64,000 nucleotides of DNA from Candidatus Zhuqueibacterota bacterium (GTDB lineage: Bacteria; Zhuqueibacterota; Zhuqueibacteria; Thermofontimicrobiales; Thiofontviventaceae), in assembly GCA_016926625.1 (NCBI GenBank), contig JAFGOE010000109.1, forward strand, positions 1 through 64,000. The letters are read 5' to 3'. Under the pieces are notes generated by a model, which was not told where the DNA came from, did no database searches, and worked only from the letters and a program-made list of their open reading frames with translations. The translations under genes and the position numbers were made by a program. How positions within the stretch are numbered: position 1 is the first letter of the stretch; every line of letters begins with the position of its first letter. Of the stretch, positions 4,080-40,073 are shown piece after piece.

Positions 4080-5981
<1,902 letters not shown>

Positions 5982-6027: not shown

Positions 6028-7917
6028 TTAGCCGATATATAATCGGTGCCAGACTTCAAAGGTTAGCAGTCCCCATAAATGCTCACCTAAATTTTGTTTG
6101 CCTTCCTTGTGGATACCGATCGTCTCTTCCACTCCTTTTTTATTAAAGTAGTGTAAGACACGACTATCCGGAGCGAGCAACATTTTTTTCACGAACGGCT
6201 CGAGTTCGTCCTTGAACCATATCGCTAACGGGGGCTCGAATCCGTGTTTTTGTTTCGTGTGAATTTCCTGGGGTAATTTATCCCGCATCGCTCTGTGAAT
6301 GAGGTACTTCGTCTTAAAGCCCTTCACCTTCAGCGATGGCGGGACGGTCGCCGCAAACTCCACCAACTTATAATCCAGGTACGGGTTTCTGGCGACGAGT
6401 GAGTTCGCGATGCATGTTCGCTCAGTCTTCGCCAACACCGAATTGACAAACCGAAATCGTATATCAGTATAATTTACTCTATTTAACAGTTCTTTGCCAC
6501 TTGTTTTATCAAAAAACTCTTCGATCATTCGATGATTGTCGCTCGATATAGCGCGTTTGATATCATCGTTGTACAGCCGATCCTTCTGGTCCTGACGAGC
6601 CCACGAGATCTTATTCTTATAACGATCAATAAACGGAAGGTTGGCATCGTGTACGATTTTCTGAAACCGTTCGACAGAATACGCGTATTTGACCGGCAAC
6701 ACCTTTCCTGCTATCTGCAGCATCCCGGGGATCAGGCTTCTGGAAATAATTCCGGGAATTTTACGATAGTACTCGCTGTATAACATTCCCGGGTAGGTTG
6801 TATAACCAGCCAGCAATTCGTCTCCTCCGTCACCCGTAAATACGGCGTCGACATATTTTTTCGTCTCTCGCGCCAGATAATAACTGGGCAACGCGGATGA
6901 GTCGCCGAAGGGCTGATCGAAGAACGTGATAATTTTGGGTAATAATTCCTCCACGCTCTCCTTATCCACGACGAACTCATGATGATTCGTTTTACAATAA
7001 TTTGCCATAATGCGTTGATAATAGCTCTCATCATACCCCTTCTCCTTGAACGCGATAGAGAAGGTATTGACCGGATTGGGCGTCATTTCGCTTAACAGGG
7101 AAACGACTGAGCTGGAATCCATACCGCCACTCAGATATGAACCGTACGATAGATTCCCCATCAATCGTATTTTTATAGCTTCGTTCAATAATTCCAGCAG
7201 CCGCTCCTCATATTCTGCCACTGATTTGACATGGTTCTCCTGATAATCATAGTCCCAATACCGTTTGACTTCCACCCTGTTATTTTGAAATCTAAGATAG
7301 CAACCGGCTGGTAATTTATGCAACTCGTTGTAGATGGTCAGAGGTTCTGGTATCAACCGATAGGAGAAGAAGTGATCCATGGCGTTGAAATTGATCGATT
7401 TGACAATCGATCCCTCCTTCAAAATCGCCTTCATTTCCGAAGCAAACAGAAACGAATCGTTACACTGTGCGTAAAATAGCGGTCTGGCGCCGATGCGATC
7501 ACGATATAATAACAAAAGATTCTTGTTCGCGTCCCAAATGGCAAAGGCAAACACGCCACGCAATTTATGAACGAAATCTTCCCCGTACTCTTCGTACAGA
7601 TGAGGGATCACCTCATAATCAGCGTTCGATCGCAGCGAGTGCTTCTTGGCGTACAGATCAGCCTTTAATTCTTCATAGTTATACAGTTCACAATCGGCTA
7701 CGGCGATGATCGTCCTGTTTTGATTAGCGGGTAATTCGTTATCGTTTTGATCCTTAAATAATTTCAGCGTTCGTTGTCCGAACGCAACGGAGCCGTTGAT
7801 TCCCACTAACAGATGGTCCGGCCCTCGATGTATCATCGTCCCGGTGCAGTCAGTGATCTTTTGCTGTAAAACAGATTGATCCGCTATTTTGCTTAGTATT
7901 CCACAGATTCCGCTCAT
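6028..7917 (-). CDS. Asparagine synthetase-like protein with Cys2 replaced by Ser
   Basis: This 629-residue AsnB homologue has a full synthetase domain, including LSGGMDSSSVV and TGDGGDELLAGY. The N-terminus reads MSGICGILSK: the nucleophile at position 2 is Ser (codon AGC, one base from TGC). The substrate-binding FNGEIYN is changed to VADCELYN, with the conserved Asn replaced by Asp, while HRGPD at 30-34 and Asp100 remain. No alternative start restores Cys2. Glutaminase activity is therefore doubtful. The enzyme might use free ammonia, ammonia from a partner, or another amine, as beta-lactam synthetase does with an intramolecular amine. It lies 46 bases upstream of the intact AsnB gene at 4080-5981, suggesting linked function. 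Confidence 0.9.
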   Translation of the reverse strand: MSGICGILSKIADQSVLQQKITDCTGTMIHRGPDHLLVGINGSVAFGQRTLKLFKDQNDNELPANQNRTIIAVADCELYNYEELKADLYAKKHSLRSNADYEVIPHLYEEYGEDFVHKLRGVFAFAIWDANKNLLLLYRDRIGARPLFYAQCNDSFLFASEMKAILKEGSIVKSINFNAMDHFFSYRLIPEPLTIYNELHKLPAGCYLRFQNNRVEVKRYWDYDYQENHVKSVAEYEERLLELLNEAIKIRLMGNLSYGSYLSGGMDSSSVVSLLSEMTPNPVNTFSIAFKEKGYDESYYQRIMANYCKTNHHEFVVDKESVEELLPKIITFFDQPFGDSSALPSYYLARETKKYVDAVFTGDGGDELLAGYTTYPGMLYSEYYRKIPGIISRSLIPGMLQIAGKVLPVKYAYSVERFQKIVHDANLPFIDRYKNKISWARQDQKDRLYNDDIKRAISSDNHRMIEEFFDKTSGKELLNRVNYTDIRFRFVNSVLAKTERTCIANSLVARNPYLDYKLVEFAATVPPSLKVKGFKTKYLIHRAMRDKLPQEIHTKQKHGFEPPLAIWFKDELEPFVKKMLLAPDSRVLHYFNKKGVEETIGIHKEGKQNLGEHLWGLLTFEVWHRLYIG

Positions 7918-23706: not shown

Positions 23707-24693
23707 TTATTTTGATTTCATGAATGATTTACCGTTTATGGGTATCTTTTCTGTCAAATAGATGCTCTTTCGCTTACCAGTTTTCACGATCAAATCTGCT
23801 AATAATCCCCACACAATGAATTGAAAACCAGTGGCGATGAATAAAAACACAGACGTCAATAGGATGTTGATATCGGTTAAAGGTTTGTTGAATAAATAGA
23901 CTCTATATAATATCCACAACGACGAAATTATGCCGAAAACAATAAACATGACTCCGATCTTTCCGAAGAAACGTAACGGATTTCTTAAATATTTCATAAA
24001 CAGATTCATGGCCATTAAATCCACGATCACACGAAAGGTACGCGTAATATTATATTTCGATTTTCCGAACTTCCTGGGATGATGCGTGACCACCATCTCA
24101 GAGATCCTGGCCCCTTCGATTTTTGCCAGCGCCGGTATGAATCGGTGAAGTTCACCATATAAGTTAATCCGTTTGATGATCTCCGAACGAAACGCCTTCA
24201 GGGAACAACCCGTGTCGTGCAATTTGACTCTCGTCACGGAACAGATTATCTTATTGGCAATTTTTGATGGTACCTTCCGAATGATCAGCTTATCCTTTCT
24301 GTTCTTACGCCAACCGCTCACCAAATCGTAGCCTTCCTCCAATTTATCCAGTAACCTTGGCATATCGATCGGATCGTTTTGTAAATCGCCATCCATCGCG
24401 ATGACGACATCTCCCCGGGCTGCATCGAAACCCGCTGACATGGCAGCCGATTGTCCAAAATTACCGCGGAATTTGACAACCTTCACATGTTTGTTCTGCT
24501 GGTGTATCTGTTTGAGCAGCGGATAGGTCTGATCCCTACTACCGTCATCCACATAGATAATCTCATAGGTCTTATCAATTGTCTCCAGAACAGTCTGAAT
24601 ACGCGTGTGCAGAAGATTCACATTTTCCTCTTCGTTGTACAGCGGTACGACAATCGAAAGATCGAGTCGATCCTGTTCTCTGATTTTTCTCAT
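23707..24693 (-). CDS. GT2 polyprenyl-phosphate sugar synthase (ArnC/GtrB-like)
   Basis: This 328-residue enzyme has all family landmarks: LSIVVPLYNEEENVNLLH near 12, YEIIYVDDGSRDQTY near 45, VVIAMDGDLQNDPIDMP near 90 with the DGD metal motif, and LVSGWRKNRKD. GELHRFIPALAKIEG follows, and two membrane helices end the protein (about 225-310). The expected reaction is transfer of a sugar or sugar derivative from a nucleotide to undecaprenyl phosphate. The start overlaps the end of the upstream YdjM-like gene by four bases (ATGA). Confidence 0.92.
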   Translation of the reverse strand: MRKIREQDRLDLSIVVPLYNEEENVNLLHTRIQTVLETIDKTYEIIYVDDGSRDQTYPLLKQIHQQNKHVKVVKFRGNFGQSAAMSAGFDAARGDVVIAMDGDLQNDPIDMPRLLDKLEEGYDLVSGWRKNRKDKLIIRKVPSKIANKIICSVTRVKLHDTGCSLKAFRSEIIKRINLYGELHRFIPALAKIEGARISEMVVTHHPRKFGKSKYNITRTFRVIVDLMAMNLFMKYLRNPLRFFGKIGVMFIVFGIISSLWILYRVYLFNKPLTDINILLTSVFLFIATGFQFIVWGLLADLIVKTGKRKSIYLTEKIPINGKSFMKSK

Positions 24694-25244
24694 AATGACC
24701 TTCGTCTATTTTTCCTTATGTACTCGGTTAAAATCAATATAGGCAACAAGATAACAACCTCCTGAGCGATCGTCATAAGATTGTGCCAATTGAATAAGCT
24801 CTGTATAAAAATCTCACTCGATGATGCCTTGTGCACATCATTGAAAATATAAAATGAAGATAAGAAATAGTCATCACTTAACGGCCAGAACAGTTGTTCT
24901 CCAAAAGGATAACGCGTATCCTTGCCCAGAAAATCCATAACCAAATGACTGACGTAAACAGCAAACATCAACAGCATCGCCCTGATGAAATCTTTACGAC
25001 GGATCAAGCGGTAAATCAGGGCAACGACGACACTGACCAGCAAGGCGAAAAAGAAGCTGTGTGTCATCCCGTGATGATAAAGATTAGGATTTCCTGCAAT
25101 ATAACCCGGAACATAATCCAGATCCGCAAAATTAGCGATCATGACGAACAATATCAATTCGTACCATAAAATAGTGGCACCCATTTTTCTGGACGAATTA
25201 TACAGTATCGCTCCCATTAATGTATGACCTACAGGCGTTGGCAT
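24690..25244 (-). CDS. YdjM-like membrane metal-dependent hydrolase family protein
   Basis: A 184-residue protein with four or five membrane helices. MPTPVGHTLMGAIL, DLDYVPGY, YHHGMTHSFFFALLVS and SHLVMDFLGKDTRYPFG give the His/Asp pattern of the YdjM/PF04307 family of putative membrane-bound metal-dependent hydrolases. No substrate is established for the family. It is translationally coupled (ATGA) to the GT2 gene downstream and 32 bases from the GT2 gene upstream, so a role in handling a lipid-linked intermediate is possible but speculative. Confidence 0.85.
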   Translation of the reverse strand: MPTPVGHTLMGAILYNSSRKMGATILWYELILFVMIANFADLDYVPGYIAGNPNLYHHGMTHSFFFALLVSVVVALIYRLIRRKDFIRAMLLMFAVYVSHLVMDFLGKDTRYPFGEQLFWPLSDDYFLSSFYIFNDVHKASSSEIFIQSLFNWHNLMTIAQEVVILLPILILTEYIRKNRRRSL

Positions 25245-26227: not shown

Positions 26228-27325
26228 TCAATACATCACACCTTTGAAAAGCCTGCGCCACATCTTGTAGAGCAGCACGCCCCAAAATGAACGACGTCCT
26301 TTCCCGGGCAAACAGCGAATGAAATCGCCCGTGACCCTCCTGATCACCTTTAGATCAGGTAATTCCATTAATTCCGACGACAATTTGCTCATACCTATAT
26401 AGGCTGTACTGAATCCCAGGATCGGTAAAATCTTGAGTGTCTCCTGGCCTGCCTCGTTCCATGGAAATGCAAAATGTTTAACCTGTTTATTTTGTAAACG
26501 TTCTTCAATGACATTCTTCGATCGGAGCAGCTCGTCCTGAATCTGCGTTCTTCTTTCCTCATCGCTCTCGTAAGCATCATGTTCAGGTTGTGCGGCTCGA
26601 TATTGGTTCACCTGTTCGGTTAACTTTTGCTTCCAGTGAGGCTGTTTGAAAAAATCCTCTCCCCCATGCCCGTTAACATAGTCGATACACATTTGCGTAA
26701 GTGCTTCATCGGGGATTAGTCGGTAATGATCAGAAAACCGAGAAGCGTATTCATAAATGGGCATCCCAAATCGATGGTTTAGCTCATCGTTCTCCTGATA
26801 ACGCCCCTCCCAGATGGGCAGATTCCAGGGTTTATCCTTATCCACATGTGGTCCCAGAAAATCGGCGATATGATCCGAAATACATATCGCCTGATGCGAA
26901 TAGGAATGCGATTGAAAATCGATCACTCCGCTGTCATGCATTTCCATGACCTGATCCCACGTTAACATACCGCTCGTACCGATCCAGCGCGGAATAATAA
27001 ATACAACAGCCTTGTGACCATATTGCTTGAGCAGCGGAAACACAATCTCATACACATCAGACGTACCATCATCGAACGTGATGACCACCTCATCGTGATC
27101 CATATCGTTAGCCTTCAGCCTGTTTTCACACTCATCAGCGCTCAGGGTCTTGTAATTATTCCGTTTCAAGTGGTCCAGGCAATCACGAAATTCATCATGA
27201 TGAACATGATGATACACAAACGCGGGTATGTCATCATCCACGCTCTTGTTAAAAATAAATTTCGGATATTCTTTTCTCAAATATCCGGATATGAATGAGA
27301 TCCAATCCTGTAATAACGCTTTCAT
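26228..27325 (-). CDS. Polysaccharide deacetylase (NodB/CE4 domain)
   Basis: About 365 residues from the ATG at 27325 (MKALLQDWISF), which overlaps the stop of the upstream AsnB-like gene as ATGA; a longer frame to 27370 would overlap it further and looks unlikely. The CE4 domain shows VVITFDDGTSDVYE (catalytic and metal Asp), VDFQ-type region VIDFQSHSYSHQ (metal His pair) and HFAFPWNEAGQ. Between the second and third motif there is an insertion of roughly 110 polar residues. No signal peptide is visible, so it may act on a cytosolic lipid-linked sugar, removing an N- or O-acetyl group. Confidence 0.88.
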   Translation of the reverse strand: MKALLQDWISFISGYLRKEYPKFIFNKSVDDDIPAFVYHHVHHDEFRDCLDHLKRNNYKTLSADECENRLKANDMDHDEVVITFDDGTSDVYEIVFPLLKQYGHKAVVFIIPRWIGTSGMLTWDQVMEMHDSGVIDFQSHSYSHQAICISDHIADFLGPHVDKDKPWNLPIWEGRYQENDELNHRFGMPIYEYASRFSDHYRLIPDEALTQMCIDYVNGHGGEDFFKQPHWKQKLTEQVNQYRAAQPEHDAYESDEERRTQIQDELLRSKNVIEERLQNKQVKHFAFPWNEAGQETLKILPILGFSTAYIGMSKLSSELMELPDLKVIRRVTGDFIRCLPGKGRRSFWGVLLYKMWRRLFKGVMY

Positions 27326-29187
27326 ATCAAATTCTCTCGCAGCCATAGTTCCAAAACAATCATGGCCCACAGACGGTGTGAATTATTCCGCTTCTTCGAC
27401 AAATGATCATCGAGCATGGTCTTTACATGATCATAATTAAAAAATCCTCTCTTGCGAATCACCGATTCCGATAACCAATCCATAAAAAATGTTCTGACGG
27501 TTTCATTATCGCGAATCCAATTTTTCAGAGGAACGCTATGACCCAGTTTATCCTTACGATATATGATATCATGGGGTAAAACTGGCTCCATCGCTCGTTT
27601 AAATATGTATTTTGAGTCTGAAAATCCTTTTATCTTCAAATTAGATGGTATACCTGCGACGAATTCGACCAGCCGATGATCCAGCATCGGAAATCGAGCC
27701 TCTATACCGAAATGCTTCAGCATGCCGATTCTCCGCAGATAAAATCCCATCACCGTCTGATAATCGCTGTAGATAGATCGACTCAATAAATCCTGACCAT
27801 CGGCTTCTTTATTGAATCTCAATATTACCTGATACGGATCGAACGAATTGAAATTTGGGTACAGATCGTGTACGATCAAGTTACTGATCTCTTTTTCGGT
27901 ATAATAGATTCGCCATCGATGTGACAGCAGTCCCTTCGGATATCTGTAACTCTCTGAAAATCGTTTTATCTTGACGATCAAATTCTTCTTCTTCTCCGAA
28001 TCCGGCAGCAATCGTCCAACACTAAACGCTGGATTCAGTATGAAGGATGGGAGGAAATTAAAGAACTGGGCTGTTTTGTCTGCCAGATACACGGGATGCC
28101 CTCCGAACAGCTCATCCCCACCGTCTCCCGTGTAAATGCAGTTCACGACATCGGCTGCGTTCCTGGCTAAAATGTACGAGGCAATATTGATCCCTACATC
28201 ACAAAACGGTTCATCGATCAATTTAACGAAATCCTGAATTGAAGGGACATCGTTAGCCGTGTATTCGCTGACATGATGAATAGTGCGATAATGATTAGAG
28301 ACGATTTGAGCGTAATGGGACTCGTCAAAACTCTCTCCGCGGCATCTGAATGAAAAAGTGTGCAGATCACCATCAAGATACGATCGTGATAGAGCCGTCA
28401 TTGTACTCGAATCCATGCCTCCGCTGAGGAATATACCGGGTGTAAGATGATCGTCCACTCGTATGCGGACTGCTTCCTGCAATAGATTCAATAAGGTCTC
28501 TTCAATCTCCGGCTCTGAGGTTTTTTGATTCCCCGTTTTGAACGATAGATACCAATACGGTTCGATTTTCGTATTTCCTTTTTCATAAATCAACGTGTGT
28601 CCTGGTCTTAATTTATGTACATTTTTATAAAATGTATATAACGCCGGATTATAACAGAAGAGTAAATATTGATGAATGGCATGAAAATTCAGTTCTTTTT
28701 TAATCAATCCACTATTAACGATGGAAGCCAACGTCGAGCTGAATAGTAATTTATTACCATCCACATAATAGAACATGGGTTCGATTCCGAATCGATCGCG
28801 TGATAGGATGACGCGTTCGTTTTTTCTATCGATAATGGCAAATGAAAACTTCCCATTCAACTTATTAACAAAATCAACTCCGTACGATTCATACAACTTT
28901 AAGATAATGCAGGCACCCGATTTCTCTTTAGCAACATGAGTGTCGGATTTATCCTCTACGGAATAAATCATACCTTGAAACAGCACTGCAACCGAATGAT
29001 CTGCATTTTCCACCGGTGTCGCATTTTCATCCCTTACATGAGGTAATGAGCTCACCCCAACGCCGAAATGATCTCTGCTCAGACTATTCATGTGTCCGCT
29101 TTTCCCGTCACCGTATGTACTCATCCTATTTAACGAATCGACATCGACATGCTCGGACGGATCATTGTTATATATACCCCAAATCAT
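27322..29187 (-). CDS. Asparagine synthetase-like protein with degenerate glutaminase domain
   Basis: A 621-residue AsnB homologue. The synthetase domain is complete, with GIFLSGGMDSSTMTALS and YTGDGGDELFGGHP. The N-terminal domain is present in length but has lost its catalytic residues: the start is MIWGIYNND (Trp in place of the nucleophile Cys, with one extra residue), HRGPD is absent, and FNGEIYN has become FQGMIYS. The start at 29187 is secure because AGGAG precedes it by five bases. Glutamine hydrolysis is therefore not expected. A ligase using ammonia or another amine is the likely alternative. The downstream deacetylase is coupled by ATGA, hinting that a freed amino group could be its co-substrate (inference). 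Confidence 0.9.
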   Translation of the reverse strand: MIWGIYNNDPSEHVDVDSLNRMSTYGDGKSGHMNSLSRDHFGVGVSSLPHVRDENATPVENADHSVAVLFQGMIYSVEDKSDTHVAKEKSGACIILKLYESYGVDFVNKLNGKFSFAIIDRKNERVILSRDRFGIEPMFYYVDGNKLLFSSTLASIVNSGLIKKELNFHAIHQYLLFCYNPALYTFYKNVHKLRPGHTLIYEKGNTKIEPYWYLSFKTGNQKTSEPEIEETLLNLLQEAVRIRVDDHLTPGIFLSGGMDSSTMTALSRSYLDGDLHTFSFRCRGESFDESHYAQIVSNHYRTIHHVSEYTANDVPSIQDFVKLIDEPFCDVGINIASYILARNAADVVNCIYTGDGGDELFGGHPVYLADKTAQFFNFLPSFILNPAFSVGRLLPDSEKKKNLIVKIKRFSESYRYPKGLLSHRWRIYYTEKEISNLIVHDLYPNFNSFDPYQVILRFNKEADGQDLLSRSIYSDYQTVMGFYLRRIGMLKHFGIEARFPMLDHRLVEFVAGIPSNLKIKGFSDSKYIFKRAMEPVLPHDIIYRKDKLGHSVPLKNWIRDNETVRTFFMDWLSESVIRKRGFFNYDHVKTMLDDHLSKKRNNSHRLWAMIVLELWLRENLI

Positions 29188-29210: not shown

Positions 29211-30677
29211 CTATTTTTCTGCAGGCTGCTTAATGAGACCTGTACGTTTACCTAAAATCTGAATATTCTTGATGACCGTATCGATTTCATCAGGATAAAA
29301 TCCTTTCATCACAAGCAGTAGCAATAAATACAGGGCAGCCGTGATGAGTATCATAAGTATGTCCGGTACCATCGGAAATACTCTAAATAACATATAGATG
29401 GTGGCTGAGGCCACGAGCGGTCGCACCGTAAGCTCCAACATAGGCAATTTAATACGATGCCAATAGAGATAGATTGATAATCCGGCAAAGAGCAATAACT
29501 CCGAGATGACCGTAGCTACCGCTGAACCGTTGTACCCGTAACTCGAGATGAGAATGAGGTTCAATGCGATTTTAATGACCAAACTGACCAGACCTAACAC
29601 CATCATCACTCTCTGTTTATTGATCGATATCAGCGTTGCGTTGAGCATCCAATTAGGATATTGAAACGCTATACCGAAAAACAATATCTGCAACGTCAAG
29701 ATCGCGCCTTCGAATTCCTGATGGAAAAAGAAACGAATCAGAAAGCTCGAAAAGATAATTCCATACGTCAGCGTCGGCAAACCGGCAAAAAACATATATC
29801 GCACGCCGCGTATGGCCAGGCCGCGATGATGATCCCGATTGACCGCATACAACTCGGACAAACGAGGCAGAAAGACGAGCCAAAATATGGTCGGCACGAT
29901 CGTGATCCCCTCATATATTTTAAACGCCGCATTGTATAGCCCAACCTCGGCGTATGTCCTCATCAAGGATAGCATGACCGTATCGATATACGAAAACAAC
30001 GTCAAAATAACAAAAAACAGACCCAGGGGAAACGCCTCGATTTGAAGATTCTTCATAAATTTCAAATTGAAATGAATCTTGATCGGGGATATCTTGAATC
30101 GAAGCACGATCAGAGTGATAAGGAAGTCGATAAATCTGACCGATACGAAGCACAGCGTAAACGGCATGAGCGACTTCCATCGGAAAAGTGCCGCCAGGCC
30201 GAAGCCCAGTAAACTTAAGCGTTCGATGATGACGAGTATGGTATCCCAACCGAACTGATCGTGTGCCTGGAAGAAGATACGAAAGGTATATTTCATATTC
30301 TTTAAAAAGGATGACACAGTAAGAATATATATGATGGTCTTGATTCTTCCTTCATATCCCAGCGCATTCACGATAACGAGCATCAGTACGTAAATGACCA
30401 AACAAAGGAGTATTTTCCAAACCAGCAAATTTCCTATGTATTTTTCAGTCTCATTCTTATCACGTGATACATTTCGGATACTGATGTCGCGGAGTCCAAA
30501 ATCGGTGAACATCTCGAAAATCGTGGCAATCGACAGGGCGGTCGTAAAGATGCCATATTCTGAACTCCCCAAAACTCGTCCGAGGAACGTGAGCAGAATA
30601 AACAGAAAGAACGTCGTCAGAGTAGAGATGCTTGAAAAAAATAAATTTTTGACTATGTTATATTCTTTATTTTTCAC
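29211..30677 (-). CDS. wzx: Wzx-type polysaccharide flippase (MVF/MATE-like superfamily)
   Basis: This 488-residue protein has about 12-14 membrane helices. The N-terminus FFLFILLTFLGRVLGSSEYG and TALSIATIFEMFTDFGLRD match polysaccharide_synt (PF01943-like) flippases, which carry undecaprenyl-diphosphate-linked repeat units to the periplasm. It is the only clear Wzx in the locus and pairs with the Wzy/WaaL-like protein at 1382-2788 and Wzc/Wza at 42671-45714, so Wzx/Wzy-dependent assembly is likely. Intergenic gaps are 13-23 bases on either side. Confidence 0.9.
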   Translation of the reverse strand: MKNKEYNIVKNLFFSSISTLTTFFLFILLTFLGRVLGSSEYGIFTTALSIATIFEMFTDFGLRDISIRNVSRDKNETEKYIGNLLVWKILLCLVIYVLMLVIVNALGYEGRIKTIIYILTVSSFLKNMKYTFRIFFQAHDQFGWDTILVIIERLSLLGFGLAALFRWKSLMPFTLCFVSVRFIDFLITLIVLRFKISPIKIHFNLKFMKNLQIEAFPLGLFFVILTLFSYIDTVMLSLMRTYAEVGLYNAAFKIYEGITIVPTIFWLVFLPRLSELYAVNRDHHRGLAIRGVRYMFFAGLPTLTYGIIFSSFLIRFFFHQEFEGAILTLQILFFGIAFQYPNWMLNATLISINKQRVMMVLGLVSLVIKIALNLILISSYGYNGSAVATVISELLLFAGLSIYLYWHRIKLPMLELTVRPLVASATIYMLFRVFPMVPDILMILITAALYLLLLLVMKGFYPDEIDTVIKNIQILGKRTGLIKQPAEK

Positions 30678-30689
30678 TCGTCCTACTTA

Positions 30690-31811
30690 TTAAATGATTT
30701 GTTCAATTCTCTCAGCCAATTTGGTCAGAGCACCTGACCACGTGAACTCTTGCTTCAGCAGTTCGAAGTCGCTTGCATCAACGGGATTGTTTTCTTTAAG
30801 CAATTTGACGATTGTATCGGCGAATTCCGAGACAGATACGATGTGTAATGTTCTATATTTTTTAGGAACGGCCCTGGCTGCTGCCTCCGTCGCTACGATC
30901 GGTTTACCGCAGGCCAGTGATTCGATAATTTTTGTCGGCATGCCCCATCCCGCTAATATGGGTGATATCATCACATCGCAACCCTTGAGATATTCCTCCA
31001 GATGTTCTACAAATCCCAGAAACTCCACATTGGGATGCTTGATGTCATTCGGCGGATTGGCACCGATAAACTGAAATTTGACATCAGGATAATGCGCCAC
31101 CACCTGATCGACGACCTGATCGCATGCTGCATATACCGCATCTCGATTGGTGGAAATATTGTAATTCCCGAAGAACAGGATCTTCTTTGCCTCATTGTTC
31201 GGCGCCTCATAGTATGGATTATAGATGGACTCATTGAAGCACTGCGGAACGACGTGCATGAGCAATTTATCCTTCCATTTGCTGTAAAATTCCGCATCAG
31301 CATCAGAAATAGGCACAAGCAATGAGCACTTTTTAACACCCTTCTTCTCGATATGATAGACCCGCGGTACGAACAGGTACCTTCTTTTATCTTGCTTCGC
31401 CTTGCCCAGATATTGTCTGTATTCTATGTTATGAGAGCAATAGATGAACGGAACCTGATATTTCTGCCTCAGTTTGAGCCCGTACATAGCGCTGATGCCA
31501 TAATCCGTCAATACGATATCAAAGTGGTGTTTCGAAATGAGCTTCTCCGCTTCCTGATATAGGCGATCACTAAAGATAAAATAATCCTTCTGAGAAAAAG
31601 GAATTTTCCTTTTCGACTGTGTACCCGTGACGCGCCATTCAAATTTTTCTTCCAGGTCAGGATCACCAGGGTGACCGGATCCTTCGAGATAGACGAGATC
31701 GATATCGAAAACACGTGCCAGATTCGTCACAAATTCCCCTCCGCGAACACCGGCTCCGGTATACGGGACATGGGGATCGTAAACACTGAGATATAACATT
31801 CGTTTCTTCAT
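30690..31811 (-). CDS. GT4 family glycosyltransferase
   Basis: A 373-residue GT-B enzyme. The acceptor domain begins MLYLSVYDPHVPYTGAGVRGGEF; the donor domain has ILFFGNYNISTNRDAV near 215, FIGANPPNDI and ISPILAGWGMPTKIIESLACGKPIV near 295. This last pattern is that of the GT4/GT1 PLP-like branch, with the second conserved Glu present. The gene start overlaps the upstream acyltransferase by four bases (ATGA). Specificity is unknown. Confidence 0.9.
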   Translation of the reverse strand: MKKRMLYLSVYDPHVPYTGAGVRGGEFVTNLARVFDIDLVYLEGSGHPGDPDLEEKFEWRVTGTQSKRKIPFSQKDYFIFSDRLYQEAEKLISKHHFDIVLTDYGISAMYGLKLRQKYQVPFIYCSHNIEYRQYLGKAKQDKRRYLFVPRVYHIEKKGVKKCSLLVPISDADAEFYSKWKDKLLMHVVPQCFNESIYNPYYEAPNNEAKKILFFGNYNISTNRDAVYAACDQVVDQVVAHYPDVKFQFIGANPPNDIKHPNVEFLGFVEHLEEYLKGCDVMISPILAGWGMPTKIIESLACGKPIVATEAAARAVPKKYRTLHIVSVSEFADTIVKLLKENNPVDASDFELLKQEFTWSGALTKLAERIEQII

Positions 31812-32557
31812 GATACATTCTCTTCTTTTCTGTTCTTAAGCACTTTGGCAGGAATGCCAACGGCGATCGAATAATCGGGTATATCATTGTTGACCACAGC
31901 GCTGGTACCGATGATACAGTCGCGTCCGATGGTAACGCCATCCATGACCTGCACATTGGAACCCAACCAGATATTCTCCTTTAGCAGGATCCCTTTCGAT
32001 TCTCGTTCCTGTTCCAGGGGTGCTTTGTCGAGATCCTTAAACGTATGGGTACCACCGATGAGATAACAATAGGCCGCTATCAATGCATTTTTCGACAATT
32101 TGACCGAACTGGCCGAAAATATTTGGCAATTGAAGCCCATATTTACATGGTCTTCCAGGATGATATCACCATTCTTACAGTTTAATATCGTGTTTCTGCC
32201 GATGAAGACACCATCACCTATTTCAATTCCCATGTTATTCTGTCCTTTTGCATCAAGGACCACATTGTCGTCTATGACCACGTTATGACCGATAGTGATC
32301 TTATGGGGATGACGCAGCACCACGTTCTGACCAAACGAAACATTATTACCAACGCTCTTAAGCAACATCGGATAGAGCAGTTTTCGCAAGACTAATCCCA
32401 ATGCACCTGGTACCCAACTTGCAATTAACATGATAAATTCATACTTCACGAGTTGCATCAATCCACTTCGCCCCACAATCAGTTGCTGATATTTCTTGAG
32501 AGCAGAGCTCTTTTCGGTAAACAACTCTTTTTGAATTTCGACGGTTTCTTTTTTCAT
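31808..32557 (-). CDS. Hexapeptide-repeat O-acyltransferase (WcaF/LpxA-fold)
   Basis: This 249-residue protein has a helical N-terminal part of about 75 residues followed by a long left-handed beta-helix with repeats such as IGHNVVIDDNVVLDAKG, IGDGVFIGRNTIL and IWLGSNVQVMDGVTIGRD. It ends SIAVGIPAKVLKNRKEE, the usual tail of sugar O-acetyltransferases. The probable reaction is acetyl (or other acyl) transfer to the glycan. The N-terminal extension is longer than in maltose acetyltransferases. Coupled by ATGA to the GT4 gene downstream. Confidence 0.88.
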   Translation of the reverse strand: MKKETVEIQKELFTEKSSALKKYQQLIVGRSGLMQLVKYEFIMLIASWVPGALGLVLRKLLYPMLLKSVGNNVSFGQNVVLRHPHKITIGHNVVIDDNVVLDAKGQNNMGIEIGDGVFIGRNTILNCKNGDIILEDHVNMGFNCQIFSASSVKLSKNALIAAYCYLIGGTHTFKDLDKAPLEQERESKGILLKENIWLGSNVQVMDGVTIGRDCIIGTSAVVNNDIPDYSIAVGIPAKVLKNRKEENVS

Positions 32558-32566
32558 TCTATGTCC

Positions 32567-33553
32567 TTATAACAAATTCTCCTGTCGATACCAATCAGCG
32601 GTCATTTTCAAACCAGTGACTAAATCGACTTTAGGATTATATCCCAGGAGTCGTTTGGCCTTCGAAATATCGAAAGCCCTGTCCTTGATAAAAAAATCGA
32701 CCCTGCGGCGATAGATCGGTGGATTGATTCGAAAAGGATAGCAAGCGATTTCGCAGAGTAATCCACCTAACCATACGGGCCACACGGGAATACTGGCCTT
32801 CGGCTCCGGCACGCCCAGGATGCTGGCGAGTAATTTGACGAATTCACTCAATTTCAAATATTGATTACCCCCAAGGGTAAAAATTTCACCAATGGCCTCA
32901 TTCTTCTCTCCGCAAAGGATGATTCCATCGACTAAATCCCTGACAAACGTCAAATGATACAGGACGTCCCCTTTTCCGATCATACGAAATTTGCCACTGT
33001 TAACCCACCTGAATATTTTCAGAAAGCGGAGATCACCTGGTCCATAAATACCGACGGGTCGGAACACGACCCCTTCGATGGCGTTCTCTTTAAAGAATTT
33101 CAAAGCCAGTTTTTCACCTTCGACTTTGGACCGTTGGTATACGTCGCCAGGGTCATAAGGGTCGCTCTCTTTCGCCGGAGGATTTTTTATCTCGCCCTGA
33201 ACACCAACCGTACTACAATGCACGAAACGCCTGACGTTAGCGGCTAGAGATGCTTCCAACAAATTTTTCGTTCCTCCCACATTCACATCAAAAAAATACT
33301 GATTGGGGACATTTTGCTCTCTGAAGATAGCGGCTATATGAAATACAATCTCCACATCTTCTACAGCCGGTATCAATGTCTCCTTGTTTGTTAAGTCGCC
33401 GATGACAACGTCTACACCTAACTCTTTTAATTTGTCGACGTTTTGGTTGGCCAGGGAGAGAGCTCTCACCTCATAACCTCGTTTTGCCAACTCTTCCGTC
33501 AGATAGCCACCCGTAAACCCGGTGGCGCCGGTAACTAGAACTTTTTTCTTCAT
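32567..33553 (-). CDS. NAD(P)-dependent SDR, epimerase/dehydratase family
   Basis: A 328-residue extended short-chain dehydrogenase. The nucleotide loop is VLVTGATGFTGGYL at the N-terminus, HIAAIF follows near 75, and YQRSKVEGE near 140 is the catalytic YxxxK with the upstream CSTVGV supplying Ser/Thr. Sequence flavour resembles dihydroflavonol-reductase or 3-beta-HSD-like members (HRF-type GDLTN, VVFRPVGIYGPGD) rather than GalE. Likely it forms or reduces a sugar nucleotide or a lipid-linked intermediate; the exact reaction cannot be read. Confidence 0.88.
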   Translation of the reverse strand: MKKKVLVTGATGFTGGYLTEELAKRGYEVRALSLANQNVDKLKELGVDVVIGDLTNKETLIPAVEDVEIVFHIAAIFREQNVPNQYFFDVNVGGTKNLLEASLAANVRRFVHCSTVGVQGEIKNPPAKESDPYDPGDVYQRSKVEGEKLALKFFKENAIEGVVFRPVGIYGPGDLRFLKIFRWVNSGKFRMIGKGDVLYHLTFVRDLVDGIILCGEKNEAIGEIFTLGGNQYLKLSEFVKLLASILGVPEPKASIPVWPVWLGGLLCEIACYPFRINPPIYRRRVDFFIKDRAFDISKAKRLLGYNPKVDLVTGLKMTADWYRQENLL

Positions 33554-33600: not shown

Positions 33601-35277
33601 CTAAGCCGGGACGTACAACTGTTTGACCTCTTCGATCTCTGCTTTCGCTCTTTCATCCGTCCATACCAGCTCGTGACCCATGATATTTGCTATCTCAACA
33701 AGCGTGGTGTCTCCTGGTTTCTCGCCCGATCCTATATCTGTTCTCCGCAATACGACATCCGAAAGCTTCATCGCCATCTCTTCACGTACCGCGTGCAACA
33801 CCTCGGCTCTGACGACTTCATTCGTTCCTGGTAAAAACCTCATCCATGATGGATCAGACTGGCCGTAACAATAAATATCATTGATAGCAGAACCGTAATT
33901 ATACGTCAGATGACTTATCGCTGATTCTCCAAGTTTGTACGGATCATCACCGATATTATGATTTAAAAATTCCTCGAATCGATCAATATCGCCCCCGTAT
34001 AGACGCGTGGTATCCGTATTCGATTTTTTCATTGGGATGGATAATCGTTTACATATTAAATTAATCGTCTTCTGGGCAACGTCTCGAGCGGTGGTATATT
34101 TAACGCCTACCACACTTACGATGCCATCGACGTTGTCTGTTTTCTGATGATCATAAATTTTATAATGCTTAACGAGATTTACTTCCCCTGTTTTTGGATT
34201 CGTCCCGGTCATCGGTAGAAAACCTGAATAGAAGTAAGATACCTCCGCTCTCTTAATATTTGCACCCGGATGTGCATTATTCACTGCGTCGAGGAATTCT
34301 TCAATTTCAGCCTCTGTCACCTTAAATCCATCTTGCTTACCCGAATAAGGCAAATGGTTCGTACCGATAATCGTTTTATCTCGCCATGGAGCAAAAAATA
34401 GGATACGATACCCATTGTATTCGCGTCCATCCTCGAAGACATGTCGGTACGGACCGGAAAGTCCGGCTGCATATTGGCCCGTGATATTGCGATTAACAAC
34501 CAGATTCATGGCCGTGGACAGGTTGAATTTTTTAGTAGTCGATGCACCATTGATTGACGCCAGGATATCATCGACCCACGGCCCTGCATTGTTCACGATC
34601 ATTTTAGCACGAATATCAAAGTGTTCACCCGTCAACGTATCTTCCACTCGCACGCCAATGGCTTTACCATTTTTTTGCAGTAAGTCCACGGCCTTCACAT
34701 AATTTGCCACGTCTGCACCGCGCTGAGTAGCCGAGAGGATAAACGAAAGCAACAGACGTTCGGTGTTATAACATTGACAATCATACCATAACGCGCCACC
34801 ATTTAAATTATATTTATCATATCCGGGAATCAATTCCCTTAGTTTTTTAGACGACATGGTGTAACCGTTGGGTATGTATTTATGAGGGTCTTCCGATCGG
34901 TTTCTGTCCACACTCAAAACATCGTTCGCCAACAGAGCAGACGACATAGCGGGTCTGCTTTTCAACTTATAGCTGTAAGTCGGCATGATGACCGGCATCG
35001 GATAGACCAGGTTTGGAGCGATGTGCATCAAAATCCGACGCTCCCTGATTGATTCTCTCACTCTCTTCAGATCTAACGTCTGTAAATAGCGTAACCCTCC
35101 GTGCATGATCTTCAGACTATTTGCCGAAGTCGCATGTCCAAAATCTTGTTTTTCAATGAGTGCAACCTTCAGCCCTCTCAACGCTGCATCCCAGGTCGCA
35201 GACGCTCCGTAAATACCTGCACCAATGATTAGAACGTCGTATTCTTCATTCGCCAGTTTCTTTAAATCTCTTTTCAT
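33601..35277 (-). CDS. glpD: FAD-dependent glycerol-3-phosphate dehydrogenase (GlpD/GlpA family)
   Basis: This 558-residue flavoprotein begins with the FAD loop DVLIIGAGIYGASATWDAAL and HATSANSLKIMHGGLRYLQ, the family signature. IVNNAGPWVDD near 225 and the G3P-binding region FFAPWRDKTIIGTNH near 290 follow, with a C-terminal helical cap. The standard reaction oxidises sn-glycerol-3-phosphate to dihydroxyacetone phosphate with transfer to quinone. It has no glycerol kinase or transporter beside it and lies inside a polysaccharide locus, which is unusual. Possible links are glycerol-phosphate decoration or oxidation of a related polyol phosphate; these are guesses. Confidence 0.9.
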   Translation of the reverse strand: MKRDLKKLANEEYDVLIIGAGIYGASATWDAALRGLKVALIEKQDFGHATSANSLKIMHGGLRYLQTLDLKRVRESIRERRILMHIAPNLVYPMPVIMPTYSYKLKSRPAMSSALLANDVLSVDRNRSEDPHKYIPNGYTMSSKKLRELIPGYDKYNLNGGALWYDCQCYNTERLLLSFILSATQRGADVANYVKAVDLLQKNGKAIGVRVEDTLTGEHFDIRAKMIVNNAGPWVDDILASINGASTTKKFNLSTAMNLVVNRNITGQYAAGLSGPYRHVFEDGREYNGYRILFFAPWRDKTIIGTNHLPYSGKQDGFKVTEAEIEEFLDAVNNAHPGANIKRAEVSYFYSGFLPMTGTNPKTGEVNLVKHYKIYDHQKTDNVDGIVSVVGVKYTTARDVAQKTINLICKRLSIPMKKSNTDTTRLYGGDIDRFEEFLNHNIGDDPYKLGESAISHLTYNYGSAINDIYCYGQSDPSWMRFLPGTNEVVRAEVLHAVREEMAMKLSDVVLRRTDIGSGEKPGDTTLVEIANIMGHELVWTDERAKAEIEEVKQLYVPA

Positions 35278-35410: not shown

Positions 35411-37297
35411 TTAACGCATATACAGATCAAACCACATCCCAAACATCATCAGAGCCCACAGTCGGTGACTATGATTTTTAATTCCTTTCAGATGTTCTGT
35501 CTTCAATTGCTCTACATATGAAGGATCAAAGAACCCTTCTCGCGAAATCTTTTCAGTCGCCAGGACATCGGTCATCATCGGTTTCAGGTCCTGGCGCAAC
35601 CAATTTTTAATCGGAATACTAAACCCCTGTTTCCCTCGGTAGAGGATATCATGCGGCAGGATGTCGTCCATGGCCTTTTTCAAGATGTATTTCGTCTGAT
35701 GATGACGTAATTTCATATTGCTGGGTATACTCGCCGCCAGTTCTACAAAACGATAATCCAGGAAGGGGACACGTGCCTCGAGTGAGGTGGCCATGCTCAT
35801 CCTGTCGACCTTTACGAGGATATCATCCACTAAATAGGTCTTGATATCGACATAGAGTTGCTGACTCGTCGCATCGTGCTTTAAATAATCGATATTCGCA
35901 AAATAGGTTCGAATAAACTTATAAGGATCCTTTTCTAAAATACCATACTTCATATCGTTATTGTAAAGCTTCGATTTCTCCTGCTCTAGCAGAAAAATCA
36001 TCCATCGAACATGCCGGAGATCCTCGGGCAAGGTTGATCCCTCGACGAAACGTTTGATTTTATTGATGATCCCTTTTTTCTGCGAAGACGGCGGAACCCT
36101 GTCTAAAATCCCGGGTATGAACTTCGATCGAATCGATGCAGGAATCATGGAATATTTCCGGTAATAGCGGTCGGCGATGTAGGTATCATAACCGGCAAAC
36201 AGCTCATCGCCTCCGTCACCCGATAGTACGACCGTCACATATTCCCTGGCCATTTTCGAGACCAAATAAGTCGGAAATATTGAAAAATCTCCAAAAGGTT
36301 CATCGAGAAAATAGATTAAATTCTCAGTCAGCTCCACAGCATTGGGCTTGATGATGAATTCGTGATGATCAGTCTTAAACGTCCTGGCGATCAGTCGTGC
36401 GTAATCTAACTCGTTGTAAGTCGAATCTTCAAATCCGATCGAAAACGTCTTGACTGGTTGTTTCATCACCTGCGACATCAAAGCCACGATGGTGCTGGAG
36501 TCGATCCCTCCGCTTAAAAACGCACCGAGCGGAACATCGCTCATTAACCTGATCTTTACGGCATCGGATAGTAATTCCCGGATACGATACTTGAATTCAG
36601 CCTCTGACGCTTCGTTGAGATTGAATTCAACTTCCCAATATTTTTTAATTTTCAATTGACGGTTTGATAATGAAATCGAATGACCGGGCATCAACTTTTT
36701 AACATCCTGTAGAATGCTCAGCGGAGCAGGTATGTACTCAAATGTCAGGAAATTATCGAGTGCCTGTAAATCGATTCGCCGTGGAATCTCCTCCGTCTGC
36801 AAAATCGCTTTTATTTCGGAACCAAATATGAATCGTTCATGGTCATAGAAATAGTATAGTGGCTTTATCCCAATCCGATCTCGCGCGATGAACAACTTTT
36901 TCAGCTTCTGATCCCAAATAGCGAAGGCAAACATGCCGTTTAATTTAGCCGGACAATCCTCACCATACTCTTCGTAAGCATGCAAAATGGCTTCCGTGTC
37001 CGTTTTGGTCTTAAACTTATGTCCCTTCGCTTGTAACTGTCGACGCAGTTCATCGTGGTTATATATTTCGCCGTTGAATACAATCCATGTCGTATCATCT
37101 TCATTGCTGATCGGTTGTTTACCGGTTACCAGATCGATGATGCTCAACCGCCTCATACCCAGCCCCACATTGCCCTCCACCCATGTACCCACGTCATCAG
37201 GGCCTCGGTGTGTTATGGTATCACACATACGACCGATCATCGACGGATCGACACTTTTACTGACATCGTTATATATTAATCCACAAATTCCGCACAT
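35411..37297 (-). CDS. asnB: Asparagine synthetase-like amidotransferase, intact glutaminase
   Basis: A 628-residue AsnB-type protein with nucleophile Cys2 (MCGICGLIYN), HRGPD at 30-34, RRLSIIDLVTGKQPISNED, FNGEIYN at 74-80 and TDTEA near 100. The synthetase domain has GAFLSGGIDSSTIVALMSQ near 250 and SGDGGDELFAGYD. It resembles the protein at 4080-5981 closely throughout. It could make asparagine, but four homologues in one glycan locus argue for amidation of sugar carboxylates. It starts 16 bases after a GT4 gene; 133 bases separate its stop from glpD. Confidence 0.92.
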   Translation of the reverse strand: MCGICGLIYNDVSKSVDPSMIGRMCDTITHRGPDDVGTWVEGNVGLGMRRLSIIDLVTGKQPISNEDDTTWIVFNGEIYNHDELRRQLQAKGHKFKTKTDTEAILHAYEEYGEDCPAKLNGMFAFAIWDQKLKKLFIARDRIGIKPLYYFYDHERFIFGSEIKAILQTEEIPRRIDLQALDNFLTFEYIPAPLSILQDVKKLMPGHSISLSNRQLKIKKYWEVEFNLNEASEAEFKYRIRELLSDAVKIRLMSDVPLGAFLSGGIDSSTIVALMSQVMKQPVKTFSIGFEDSTYNELDYARLIARTFKTDHHEFIIKPNAVELTENLIYFLDEPFGDFSIFPTYLVSKMAREYVTVVLSGDGGDELFAGYDTYIADRYYRKYSMIPASIRSKFIPGILDRVPPSSQKKGIINKIKRFVEGSTLPEDLRHVRWMIFLLEQEKSKLYNNDMKYGILEKDPYKFIRTYFANIDYLKHDATSQQLYVDIKTYLVDDILVKVDRMSMATSLEARVPFLDYRFVELAASIPSNMKLRHHQTKYILKKAMDDILPHDILYRGKQGFSIPIKNWLRQDLKPMMTDVLATEKISREGFFDPSYVEQLKTEHLKGIKNHSHRLWALMMFGMWFDLYMR

Positions 37298-37313: not shown

Positions 37314-38492
37314 CTAATACTTTCTATTGCTCAGAACTTCATAGATCGCCATCGTCTTCTTTACATAGGCGTCATAGCTGTATTTTTCTTGCGATAATTT
37401 AAGTGCGTTGACTACGATGTTATCTTTTAACTTCGTATCAGTTAATATCTTGATTATACCGCTTGCAAACGCCTTCGCATCGATATCGGTGAGCACAGAA
37501 ACGTCATCGTTGAGCACCTGGGTATGTGTGATGTGATTGGTCGCGACCACAGGTTTACCTGACCTTAAATATTCATATATTTTTAAGGGCGTATTATTCC
37601 CTTCAATACGCGGAGTTACCAAAATATCTGCCGCATCGAGATAATACTTCACCTCATCGGGTTTGACCTGTCCGATAAAGACAAATGACGGAGCGATTCC
37701 CTTTTGGCGCACCATGTCCTGATATTTCTCTATTTGCTCCGTATGTCCCCCCACCACCATGAATGTAACTTCCTGATGTTGTTGCAGGACGATATTGCTC
37801 GCTTCGATCAGCAAATCGATCCCTTGATAGGGCTCGAGAGTACCGGAATAAAGAATGATCGTTTTATCCTTTAAATTACGACTGCCACGGATATCCGAGA
37901 TTTGTTTTTTATTCGTATCGAAGACCATGCTGTTATCAGCCACGTTTTCGATCAGCATCTGCGGTTTCGAGGGGAATTTTGCATGAACGTAGTTGTAGAG
38001 TTCAGGACAGATAGTGATCACCGCATGCGAGTTTGTTATCGTACTGTTCTCAAGAAATTCGAATAGTTTAATCAATGGTTTGAATTTTGAAAATTTAAAA
38101 TTTGTTAGCTGCTGCGGTAGGCTGGAGTGCATGTCGTAAAGGTGTTTGACATGAAATAATTTTGCCAGCAAGGTACCGAAGAAGCCGGCTTCCTCGTGAG
38201 AATGTACTACGTCATATCGATTCACGATGAGTAATCGCAGTGTCTTCAAAAAGAGAAACACGTCCAGAAACAACTTGGTGGGCGAGGGACCTATTTTGAT
38301 CTTCTTCACAAAGGGGATTTTCAACATCCGGTGATAGACTACATTCTGAATCGGGACATCCTCACCCAGATGATAGGTCACCAGATCGATGGTATGACCT
38401 AATCGTGAAAGCGTATTCAAGCGATGTAACACACTGATGGGAGTTCCCCTTGGCTGAAAAAACGGCTGCGGTGCTATCATCAATATTTTCAT
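37314..38492 (-). CDS. GT4 family glycosyltransferase
   Basis: This 392-residue GT-B enzyme starts MKILMIAPQPFFQPRGTPISV, a common start of exopolysaccharide GT4 enzymes, with VVHSHEEAGFFGTLLA near 95 and LYDMHSSLPQQL near 120. The donor domain has ILYSGTLEPYQGIDLLIEA near 215 and TPRIEGNNTPLKIYEYLRSGKPVVA near 305. An AAAGGA sequence lies about ten bases before the ATG. The 282-base gap upstream makes it the first gene of its segment. Specificity is unknown. Confidence 0.9.
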   Translation of the reverse strand: MKILMIAPQPFFQPRGTPISVLHRLNTLSRLGHTIDLVTYHLGEDVPIQNVVYHRMLKIPFVKKIKIGPSPTKLFLDVFLFLKTLRLLIVNRYDVVHSHEEAGFFGTLLAKLFHVKHLYDMHSSLPQQLTNFKFSKFKPLIKLFEFLENSTITNSHAVITICPELYNYVHAKFPSKPQMLIENVADNSMVFDTNKKQISDIRGSRNLKDKTIILYSGTLEPYQGIDLLIEASNIVLQQHQEVTFMVVGGHTEQIEKYQDMVRQKGIAPSFVFIGQVKPDEVKYYLDAADILVTPRIEGNNTPLKIYEYLRSGKPVVATNHITHTQVLNDDVSVLTDIDAKAFASGIIKILTDTKLKDNIVVNALKLSQEKYSYDAYVKKTMAIYEVLSNRKY

Positions 38493-38774: not shown

Positions 38775-40073
38775 TTAACGGCCCACGCTGTGGTAATCGA
38801 AACCCATCTCCTTCATTTTGATTGGTTCATAGATATTTCTTAAATCGATAATGACCGGTTTTTTCAATAGTTTTTTAATTTTTTGCAAATCCAGACTTCT
38901 AAATTGGTTCCATTCCGTTAGAAACACTAAAGCATCCGCATCGGTGGCTGCTTCGAACGTGTCTTTACAATAAGTGATATCCGGAAGCACCTTGCGTGCT
39001 TCGTCCATGGCGACAGGATCGAACGCTCTAATTTTAGCGCCCTGCGCCGTAAGTCCGTTCAAAACAGTAATTGCCGCGGCTTCCCTCATATCATCGGTAT
39101 TCGGTTTAAACGATAATCCAAGCACCGCGATCGTCTTCCCGACGACTGACCCTATGGCCGTGCTTATTTTCTCGATCATGAGAATTTTCTGCTCTTCGTT
39201 GACTTCAATAGCCGACTGGACGATTTTAAAATCGTAATTTTTCTCTTTAGCTGTCTGAACGATGGCACGTGTGTCTTTGGGAAAGCATGAACCGCCATAG
39301 CCGGGTCCGGGATGTAAAAATTTGCGTCCAATGCGATTATCCAGGCCCATGCCTTTGGCTACATCGTGTACGTCCGCACCAACCCGCTCACAGAGTCGCG
39401 CTATTTCATTAATATATGAGATCTTGACTGCTAAAAAAGCATTGGAGGCATATTTAATTAACTCTGCCGATTCTATATTCGTCAGTACGAATGGCGTTTC
39501 GATCAAATATAAGGGACTGTAAAGGTCTTGCATAATAGCGCTGGCCTGTTCATCATCTGATCCGATGACGACGCGATTGGGTCTCATGAAGTCTTCGATG
39601 GCTGAACCTTCGCGTAAAAATTCAGGATTCGAAACAACGCTGAAACTGACCGGGGACTTAATATTTTCCTCGATGACACGTTTGATCCACCTGCCAGAAC
39701 CAACGGGCACTGTACTCTTGTTGACTATTACTTTATATCCGTTGATATGCTGCGCGACATCTTTTGCCACCCGTTCCACATATTTGAGATCTGCTGATCC
39801 ATCCTCCTTGGGTGGGGTTCCTACGGCGATGAAAATCACGAGCGATTTTTTAATCGCCTCTTCGATGTCCGTCGAAAACATCAAGCGACCCTCATCCACA
39901 TTTTTTTTCACCAGTAGATCCAGGCCTGGTTCATATATGGGTAATTTACCGTTCTGCAGCATTAAAATTTTTTCTTTATTAATATCCACGCAATGCACCG
40001 TATTCCCAAAATCTGCAAGACAAGTTCCTGTAACCAATCCAACATAGCCTGTCCCGACAATCGTAATTTGCAT
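38775..40073 (-). CDS. ugd: UDP-glucose 6-dehydrogenase
   Basis: A 432-residue UDP-glucose/GDP-mannose dehydrogenase. The NAD loop is ITIVGTGYVGLVTGTCLADFG, the substrate region NPEFLREGSAIEDFMRPNRVV, and the catalytic Cys is in GPGYGGSCFPKDTRA near 260; AVLGLSFKPNTDDMREA follows in the C-terminal domain. It oxidises UDP-glucose twice to UDP-glucuronate. A strong GGAGG lies five bases upstream of the ATG. In this locus it provides uronic acid for the polymer, consistent with the 4-epimerase at 41703-42650, and gives the AsnB-like enzymes a carboxylate to amidate. Confidence 0.95.
   Translation of the reverse strand: MQITIVGTGYVGLVTGTCLADFGNTVHCVDINKEKILMLQNGKLPIYEPGLDLLVKKNVDEGRLMFSTDIEEAIKKSLVIFIAVGTPPKEDGSADLKYVERVAKDVAQHINGYKVIVNKSTVPVGSGRWIKRVIEENIKSPVSFSVVSNPEFLREGSAIEDFMRPNRVVIGSDDEQASAIMQDLYSPLYLIETPFVLTNIESAELIKYASNAFLAVKISYINEIARLCERVGADVHDVAKGMGLDNRIGRKFLHPGPGYGGSCFPKDTRAIVQTAKEKNYDFKIVQSAIEVNEEQKILMIEKISTAIGSVVGKTIAVLGLSFKPNTDDMREAAAITVLNGLTAQGAKIRAFDPVAMDEARKVLPDITYCKDTFEAATDADALVFLTEWNQFRSLDLQKIKKLLKKPVIIDLRNIYEPIKMKEMGFDYHSVGR

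Follow-up and report, generated by a model that had tools for sequence, protein, structure and literature searches.

A conserved clade of AsnB homologues with a lost glutaminase site and an altered synthetase site in surface-polysaccharide loci

Introduction

What can an AsnB homologue make once its glutaminase domain is dead? The question is raised by a gene at 27322..29187 on the minus strand of the window, the 64,000-nucleotide stretch of DNA from a Candidatus Zhuqueibacterota bacterium that was analysed here. The product of this open reading frame, which we call AsnX, is an AsnB/PF00733 homologue of 621 aa whose glutaminase domain is dead. To our knowledge, studies of AsnB-family proteins that have lost the glutaminase have dealt mainly with antibiotic and lasso-peptide pathways. 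The loss described here defines a conserved clade that occurs in at least three lineages, lies in surface-polysaccharide loci, and carries signature changes in the synthetase site.

The AsnX gene and its domains

The degenerate glutaminase domain covers residues 1-160 (28708..29187, minus strand, as for every segment of AsnX given below), and its glutamine-site residues are gone. The highly conserved ATP-pyrophosphatase (synthetase) domain covers residues 225-621 (27325..28515). Pfam gave AsnX 247 bits for Asn_synthase (residues 232-617) and 78 bits for GATase_7, compared to 366 and 171 bits, respectively, for AsnB1, an intact homologue in the same window. An AlphaFold2 model of AsnX (pLDDT 89, pTM 0.90) has the two-domain AsnB shape, and residues 1-160 keep their fold in it. 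The initial annotation held that this domain had lost its active site but not its length.

The motifs reported in that annotation were all found in the ORF: an N-terminus of MIWGIYNND, no HRGPD, FQGMIYS in place of FNGEIYN, and an open frame with SGGMDSS and GDGGDE intact. The PP-loop SGGMDSS (255-261) lies at 28405..28425, and TGDGGDE (353-359) opens the segment TGDGGDELFGGHPVY (353-367; 28087..28131), which includes H364 (28096-28098). RKDKLGH (544-550; 27538..27558) includes the catalytic Lys, K547, and H550. R281-C282 (28342..28347), a pair invariant in AsnX, adjoins the position of Val272 in E. coli AsnB. The reported replacement of the nucleophile Cys by Trp was refined: the Cys is indeed gone, but M-I-W-G compared to M-C-G also contains an extra inserted residue. 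An alternative upstream start exposing a Cys was ruled out, since the nearest upstream in-frame stop lies about 14 codons 5' of the start and there is no Met-Cys among those codons.

AsnX relatives form a single clade

A contig search with the single AsnX protein gave no matches, and an alignment-based search did find relatives. The 34 AsnX sequences analysed are about 36-62% identical to the window protein. Relatives occur in many genomes of the same class, and named records among the matches listed belong to candidate division KSB1, Zixibacteria and Desulfobulbaceae, including Desulforhopalus sp. IMCC35007. The genomes sampled were mostly MAGs, and the distribution over at least three lineages is a lower bound. 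The ten best plasmid matches are 27-30% identical to AsnX and are annotated as canonical asnB or XrtA amidotransferase. No paper describing the family was found among open-licence papers. Further members could be sought with the motif FRC...GDGGDE...GHPVY...K-L-G-H-S.

A tree was built from the 34 AsnX sequences, 40 AsnB1-type proteins and 70 other AsnBs; beta-lactam synthetase (BLS) and carbapenam synthetase (CPS) were outside this sample. AsnX was monophyletic with support of 1.0, whether all columns or just the synthetase domain were used. The clade branches among polysaccharide AsnBs, near AsnB1, with a weakly supported sister group. Separately, a Planctomycetota AsnB-like protein (L095:12068-13978) adjoins AsnX in one of the two trees; its sequence starts with MPGIC, the dyad position is occupied by His, and several synthetase residues are altered.

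The glutaminase site is lost across the clade

Compared to E. coli AsnB, the window protein has lost nine out of nine glutamine-site residues (C1, R30, G31, P32, D33, R49, N74, E76 and D98), and G75 alone remains. The same alignment found Cys1, Arg49 and Asn74 in none of the 34 AsnX sequences, Glu76 in two, Asp98 in four, and the RGPD residues in three to five. Of the nine residues, 18 sequences have none, 11 have one and five have two, against all nine in each of the 40 AsnB1 sequences. Judged from these sequences, the loss exceeds chance. A pseudogene or a sequencing error local to the window was rejected as an explanation because the loss is clade-wide.

AsnX members begin with M-x-x-G rather than M-C-G, most commonly MI[F/W/Y/A]G. 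Three relatives have a Cys at position 3 (L071 and L072, MWCG; L073, MICG), and the residue inserted near the start means that an N-terminal Cys could not be exposed even in these. Recruitment of another Cys within the N-domain, which the initial annotation had named as a finding that would refute it, was rejected as well: at any N-domain column Cys occurs in at most five of the 34 sequences, and in seven of them the first 160 residues contain no Cys at all.

In the 22 loci holding both genes, mean pairwise identity in AsnX is 0.296 for the N-domain and 0.548 for the C-domain, whereas AsnB1 from the same loci gives 0.641 and 0.638. This difference means that constraint has been lifted from the glutaminase only. 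The N-domain, freed from its former constraint and still folded in the structural model, may now be a scaffold.

A second glutaminase loss, less advanced and separate from that of AsnX, is apparently present elsewhere in the window. AsnB3 (6028-7917, minus strand) starts with MSGICG, with Ser for the Cys nucleophile, and has R49 changed to Thr, N74 to Asp and G75 to Cys; HRGPD, E76 and D98 are kept. This contig carries all four PF00733 genes of the genome: AsnB1, AsnB2 (4080-5981), AsnB3 and AsnX.

The synthetase site is retained and altered

The active site of AsnX was mapped by sequence alignment to E. coli AsnB. In E. coli numbering, S234, G235, G236, D238, S239, G347, D351, E352, K429 and K449 are present in all 34 AsnX sequences, so that each element of the PF00733 signature (PP-loop SGGxDS, Asp351, Glu352, Lys429, Lys449) is universal in the clade. 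In AsnX numbering, the PP-loop S, G, G, D and S are residues 255-257, 259 and 260, and residue 258 is Met in 30/34.

Several residues, among them R281, C282, G332, H364, R486 and H550, are invariant throughout AsnX and almost never seen in 109 other AsnBs. R281 and C282, which come right after the strand bearing the Val272 position in the alignment, are found in 34/34 AsnX compared to at most 3% of the others. H364 stands in place of Tyr357 of E. coli AsnB (His in 34/34 AsnX; Tyr in 109/109 others, L095 excluded). H550 stands in place of Phe452 (His in 34/34; Phe in 107/109) and lies three residues beyond the catalytic Lys, K547, which is itself present in 34/34. Tyr357 appears to align with the dyad Tyr of the AS-like enzyme PesC, in which the Glu-Tyr dyad is needed and a change of Tyr to Phe abolishes activity (PMC13060819). 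Since these AsnX-only residues fall in active-site segments, they suggest an altered substrate or nucleophile rather than mere loss of the ammonia supply.

AsnX lies in surface-polysaccharide loci with an intact AsnB

The window contains a surface-polysaccharide cluster with a flippase, glycosyltransferases, a polyprenyl glycosylphosphotransferase, a Wzc-type kinase, an export protein, a UDP-glucose dehydrogenase, an acetyltransferase and epimerases. The flippase gene (Polysacc_synt; 29211..30677) is immediately upstream of AsnX, and all the genes given coordinates in this paragraph and the next are on the minus strand. The ATGA coupling of AsnX to a polysaccharide deacetylase (PF01522; 26228..27325), noted in the initial annotation, is borne out by the coordinates of the AsnX stop TGA (27324-27322) and the deacetylase ATG (27325-27323). 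The UDP-glucose 6-dehydrogenase type enzyme (38775..40073) scores 494 bits with TIGR03026, over the cut-off, and 610 bits with the TuaD model, under the cut-off of 700; it might supply a uronate carboxylate.

Companion genes were counted in the 28 AsnX loci whose upstream flank measures 7 kb or more and were assigned to families by best BLAST hit to the window. Because of this assignment and of near-duplicate loci from related genomes, the counts are neither independent nor exact: AsnB1 (35411..37297), an NAD-dependent epimerase/dehydratase (32567..33553) and a GT4 glycosyltransferase (37314..38492) were each present in 28/28, a hexapeptide acetyltransferase (31808..32557) in 26/28, the deacetylase in 16/28, and a GlpD-like FAD oxidoreductase (33601..35277) in 12/28. 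AsnB1 is a glutamine-dependent AsnB homologue (MCGICG..HRGPD) that keeps every glutamine-site residue. It is on the same strand as AsnX in 29/29 loci, usually 2.6-7.4 kb away, and 9/11 further AsnX genomes have an AsnB1 match of at least 49% identity. Some related loci have AsnB1 but no AsnX. The minimal cassette in Desulfobulbales is GT-AsnB1-epimerase-GlpD-AsnX, with GlpD as part of the core and unrelated genes outside.

Other genes recur in these neighborhoods. A YdjM-family membrane protein (24690-25244, minus strand) is found near AsnX in 19/28 loci. Pyrroline-5-carboxylate reductase family genes lie near AsnX in two loci (L048:6757-7575 and L049:2680-3531), where other AsnX loci have unannotated ORFs of similar length. 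Several related loci have radical SAM/SPASM and methyltransferase genes that adjoin AsnB1, GlpD or the epimerase (for example, L034:5369-7276 and L043:14186-15199).

Two wider associations were considered and rejected. An exosortase/PEP-CTERM link showed no association with AsnX; no exosortase was found in the genome of the window (85% complete), and few were found in AsnX genomes. A link to the linking sugar of the type IX secretion system (T9SS) was rejected since T9SS tails occur in all the class genomes tested, with or without AsnX, and they are absent from four Desulfobulbales genomes with AsnX. What made this link attractive was a linking sugar with a uronamide made with the help of an AsnB homologue (PMC7468200), along with the 132 matches to TIGR04183, the T9SS C-terminal sorting signal, in the genome of the window. 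This is a very large cargo set for a KSB1-related bacterium, and contig C126 has a PorU-like protein that scores under the model cut-off.

What AsnX may make

The dead glutaminase, the constrained synthetase and the polysaccharide cluster together predict a carboxylate-activating ligase that is fed otherwise than by its own glutaminase. On balance, AsnX probably serves a cell-surface polysaccharide pathway as an ATP-dependent amide ligase, using an amine that is not derived from glutamine. The PP-loop site would adenylate a carboxylate as in AsnB (carboxylate + ATP to acyl-adenylate + PPi). Conversion of glutamine to ammonia would be impossible, with the glutaminase domain serving merely as a scaffold, and another amine, reaching the rebuilt synthetase pocket directly, would attack the acyl-adenylate and leave an amide on the glycan precursor. 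AsnB1 would form the usual glutamine-dependent amide alongside. Adenylation, the placement of the carboxylate on a sugar, and a nucleophile other than ammonia are each predicted from sequence. Our guess for the carboxylate is a sugar precursor such as a uronate, prompted by the cluster's UDP-glucose dehydrogenase and by the AsnB homologue of P. gingivalis that makes the uronamide of a linking sugar (PMC7468200). If the amine is found, AsnX would be a new enzyme that places amides on glycans, and the locus would hold a paired live and dead AsnB system.

Three points count against this explanation. No single gene for amine production is adjacent to AsnX in all loci, AsnB-type enzymes can use free ammonia, and the GDG loop seems to have an Asp of the AsnB type where lactam-forming BLS and CPS have Tyr. 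Another possible explanation, which we regard as unlikely, is that AsnX is an ammonia-dependent amidotransferase that forms a simple amide on a second carboxylate with ammonia that is free or delivered by AsnB1. This would fit the constant presence of AsnB1, on the same strand, in the AsnX loci and its match in most of the further genomes, and PesC is active with free ammonia (PMC13060819). However, the synthetase residues H364, H550, R281, C282 and R486, peculiar to AsnX, are left unexplained if all that was lost is the ammonia supply, and a changed nucleophile or substrate is favored over an ammonia-fed AsnB, though not strongly.

The initial annotation proposed that the coupled deacetylase liberates a sugar amine, which AsnX then links to a carboxylate. 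The site loss and the constrained synthetase uphold the ligase part of this proposal over a glutaminase, but the source of the amine does not hold in general. The ATGA coupling in the window and the presence of the deacetylase in 16/28 loci are in its favor, as is the proposal that the linking sugar of P. gingivalis is acted on first by a putative CE4 deacetylase and afterwards by an amino-acid transferase (PMC7468200). Within the loci, though, the deacetylase is absent near AsnX in 12/28, among them the Desulfobulbales cassette. It was therefore rejected as a universal partner, and the deacetylase explanation is improbable and local at best.

It is very improbable that AsnX makes no amide and that Cys282 instead helps to transfer sulfur or an acyl group once adenylation has occurred, in the manner of PP-loop thiolases: Cys282 is found throughout the clade, is essentially missing from the 109 other AsnBs and lies just past the strand of the Val272 position, but no sulfur-relay gene was noticed among the neighbors, the AsnB catalytic Lys and Asp/Glu are retained, and the thiolase matches in Foldseek are weak and common to the whole fold. 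An equally small probability is given to a pseudoenzyme or regulatory subunit for AsnB1, which the tight co-occurrence of the two genes would suit, because over 80 columns are invariant in an alignment of 27 AsnX sequences; most of them belong to the synthetase domain, and all the ATP-site residues checked are among them.

Returning to the amide ligase, a bolder and rather doubtful version is that AsnX stands at the head of a new class of intermolecular amide ligases, derived from AsnB and active in polysaccharide assembly, with a Glu-His dyad in place of Glu-Tyr and an Arg-Cys/Arg/His pocket. These would link the carboxylate of a sugar to an amino sugar or other amino compound. If true, amino-acylated or amide-bridged glycans would occur beside the simple uronamides of AsnB1.

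Comparison with known systems

AsnX scores 268.7 bits with TIGR01536 (glutamine-hydrolysing asparagine synthetase), barely over the cut-off of 267.1, and automatic annotation would thus name the window protein glutamine-hydrolysing. Its best-scoring NCBIfam model is TIGR03108 (eps_aminotran_1, the amidotransferase of XrtA/PEP-CTERM systems), at 355.6 bits and below the cut-off of 816.9. AsnB1 scores 672 bits with this model. TIGR03108 proteins and the uronamide-forming AsnBs of the WbpS/PGN_1234 type come from polysaccharide loci of a similar kind, but both the glutaminase and the Glu-Tyr dyad are intact in AsnB1-type proteins and not in AsnX.

Lasso peptide cyclases are amide-forming ligases of the AsnB family that do not use glutamine. 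AsnX scores 203.1 bits with the cyclase model NF033535, below the cut-off of 525, and no leader peptidase or precursor was noticed near AsnX.

BLS and CPS have lost glutaminase function and share with AsnX the AsnB fold, a full-length glutaminase-like domain and the ATP-pyrophosphatase. The likeness to BLS and CPS drawn in the initial annotation stands at the sequence level for the dead glutaminase and retained synthetase, but a specific kinship found no support in the tree of AsnX, AsnB1-type and other AsnB sequences, where AsnX falls among the polysaccharide AsnBs. Identity to them is 13-17% in structural alignment, and they belong to antibiotic clusters rather than polysaccharide loci. Y348 of BLS and Y345 of CPS, within the G-x-G loop, are presumably the Tyr of the Tyr-Glu dyad. 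When the position is mapped via Glu348 of E. coli AsnB, the GDG loop of AsnX seems to have the AsnB-type Asp355 where these enzymes have Tyr.

The top Foldseek matches of the AsnX model were TsnB9, E. coli AsnB, BLS, human ASNS and CPS. E. coli AsnB has the same two-domain architecture, and all the ATP-site residues checked are common to both, but it has a glutaminase site and has Tyr357 and Phe452 where AsnX has His. The best PDB match by both sequence and fold is TsnB9 (7ylz), a hydroxyamidotransferase of trichostatin biosynthesis. In the alignment, TsnB9 lacks the Arg-Cys pair but, like AsnX, has His at the dyad Tyr position (ADEIFAGH), suggesting that His at this position may suit an unusual nitrogen nucleophile.
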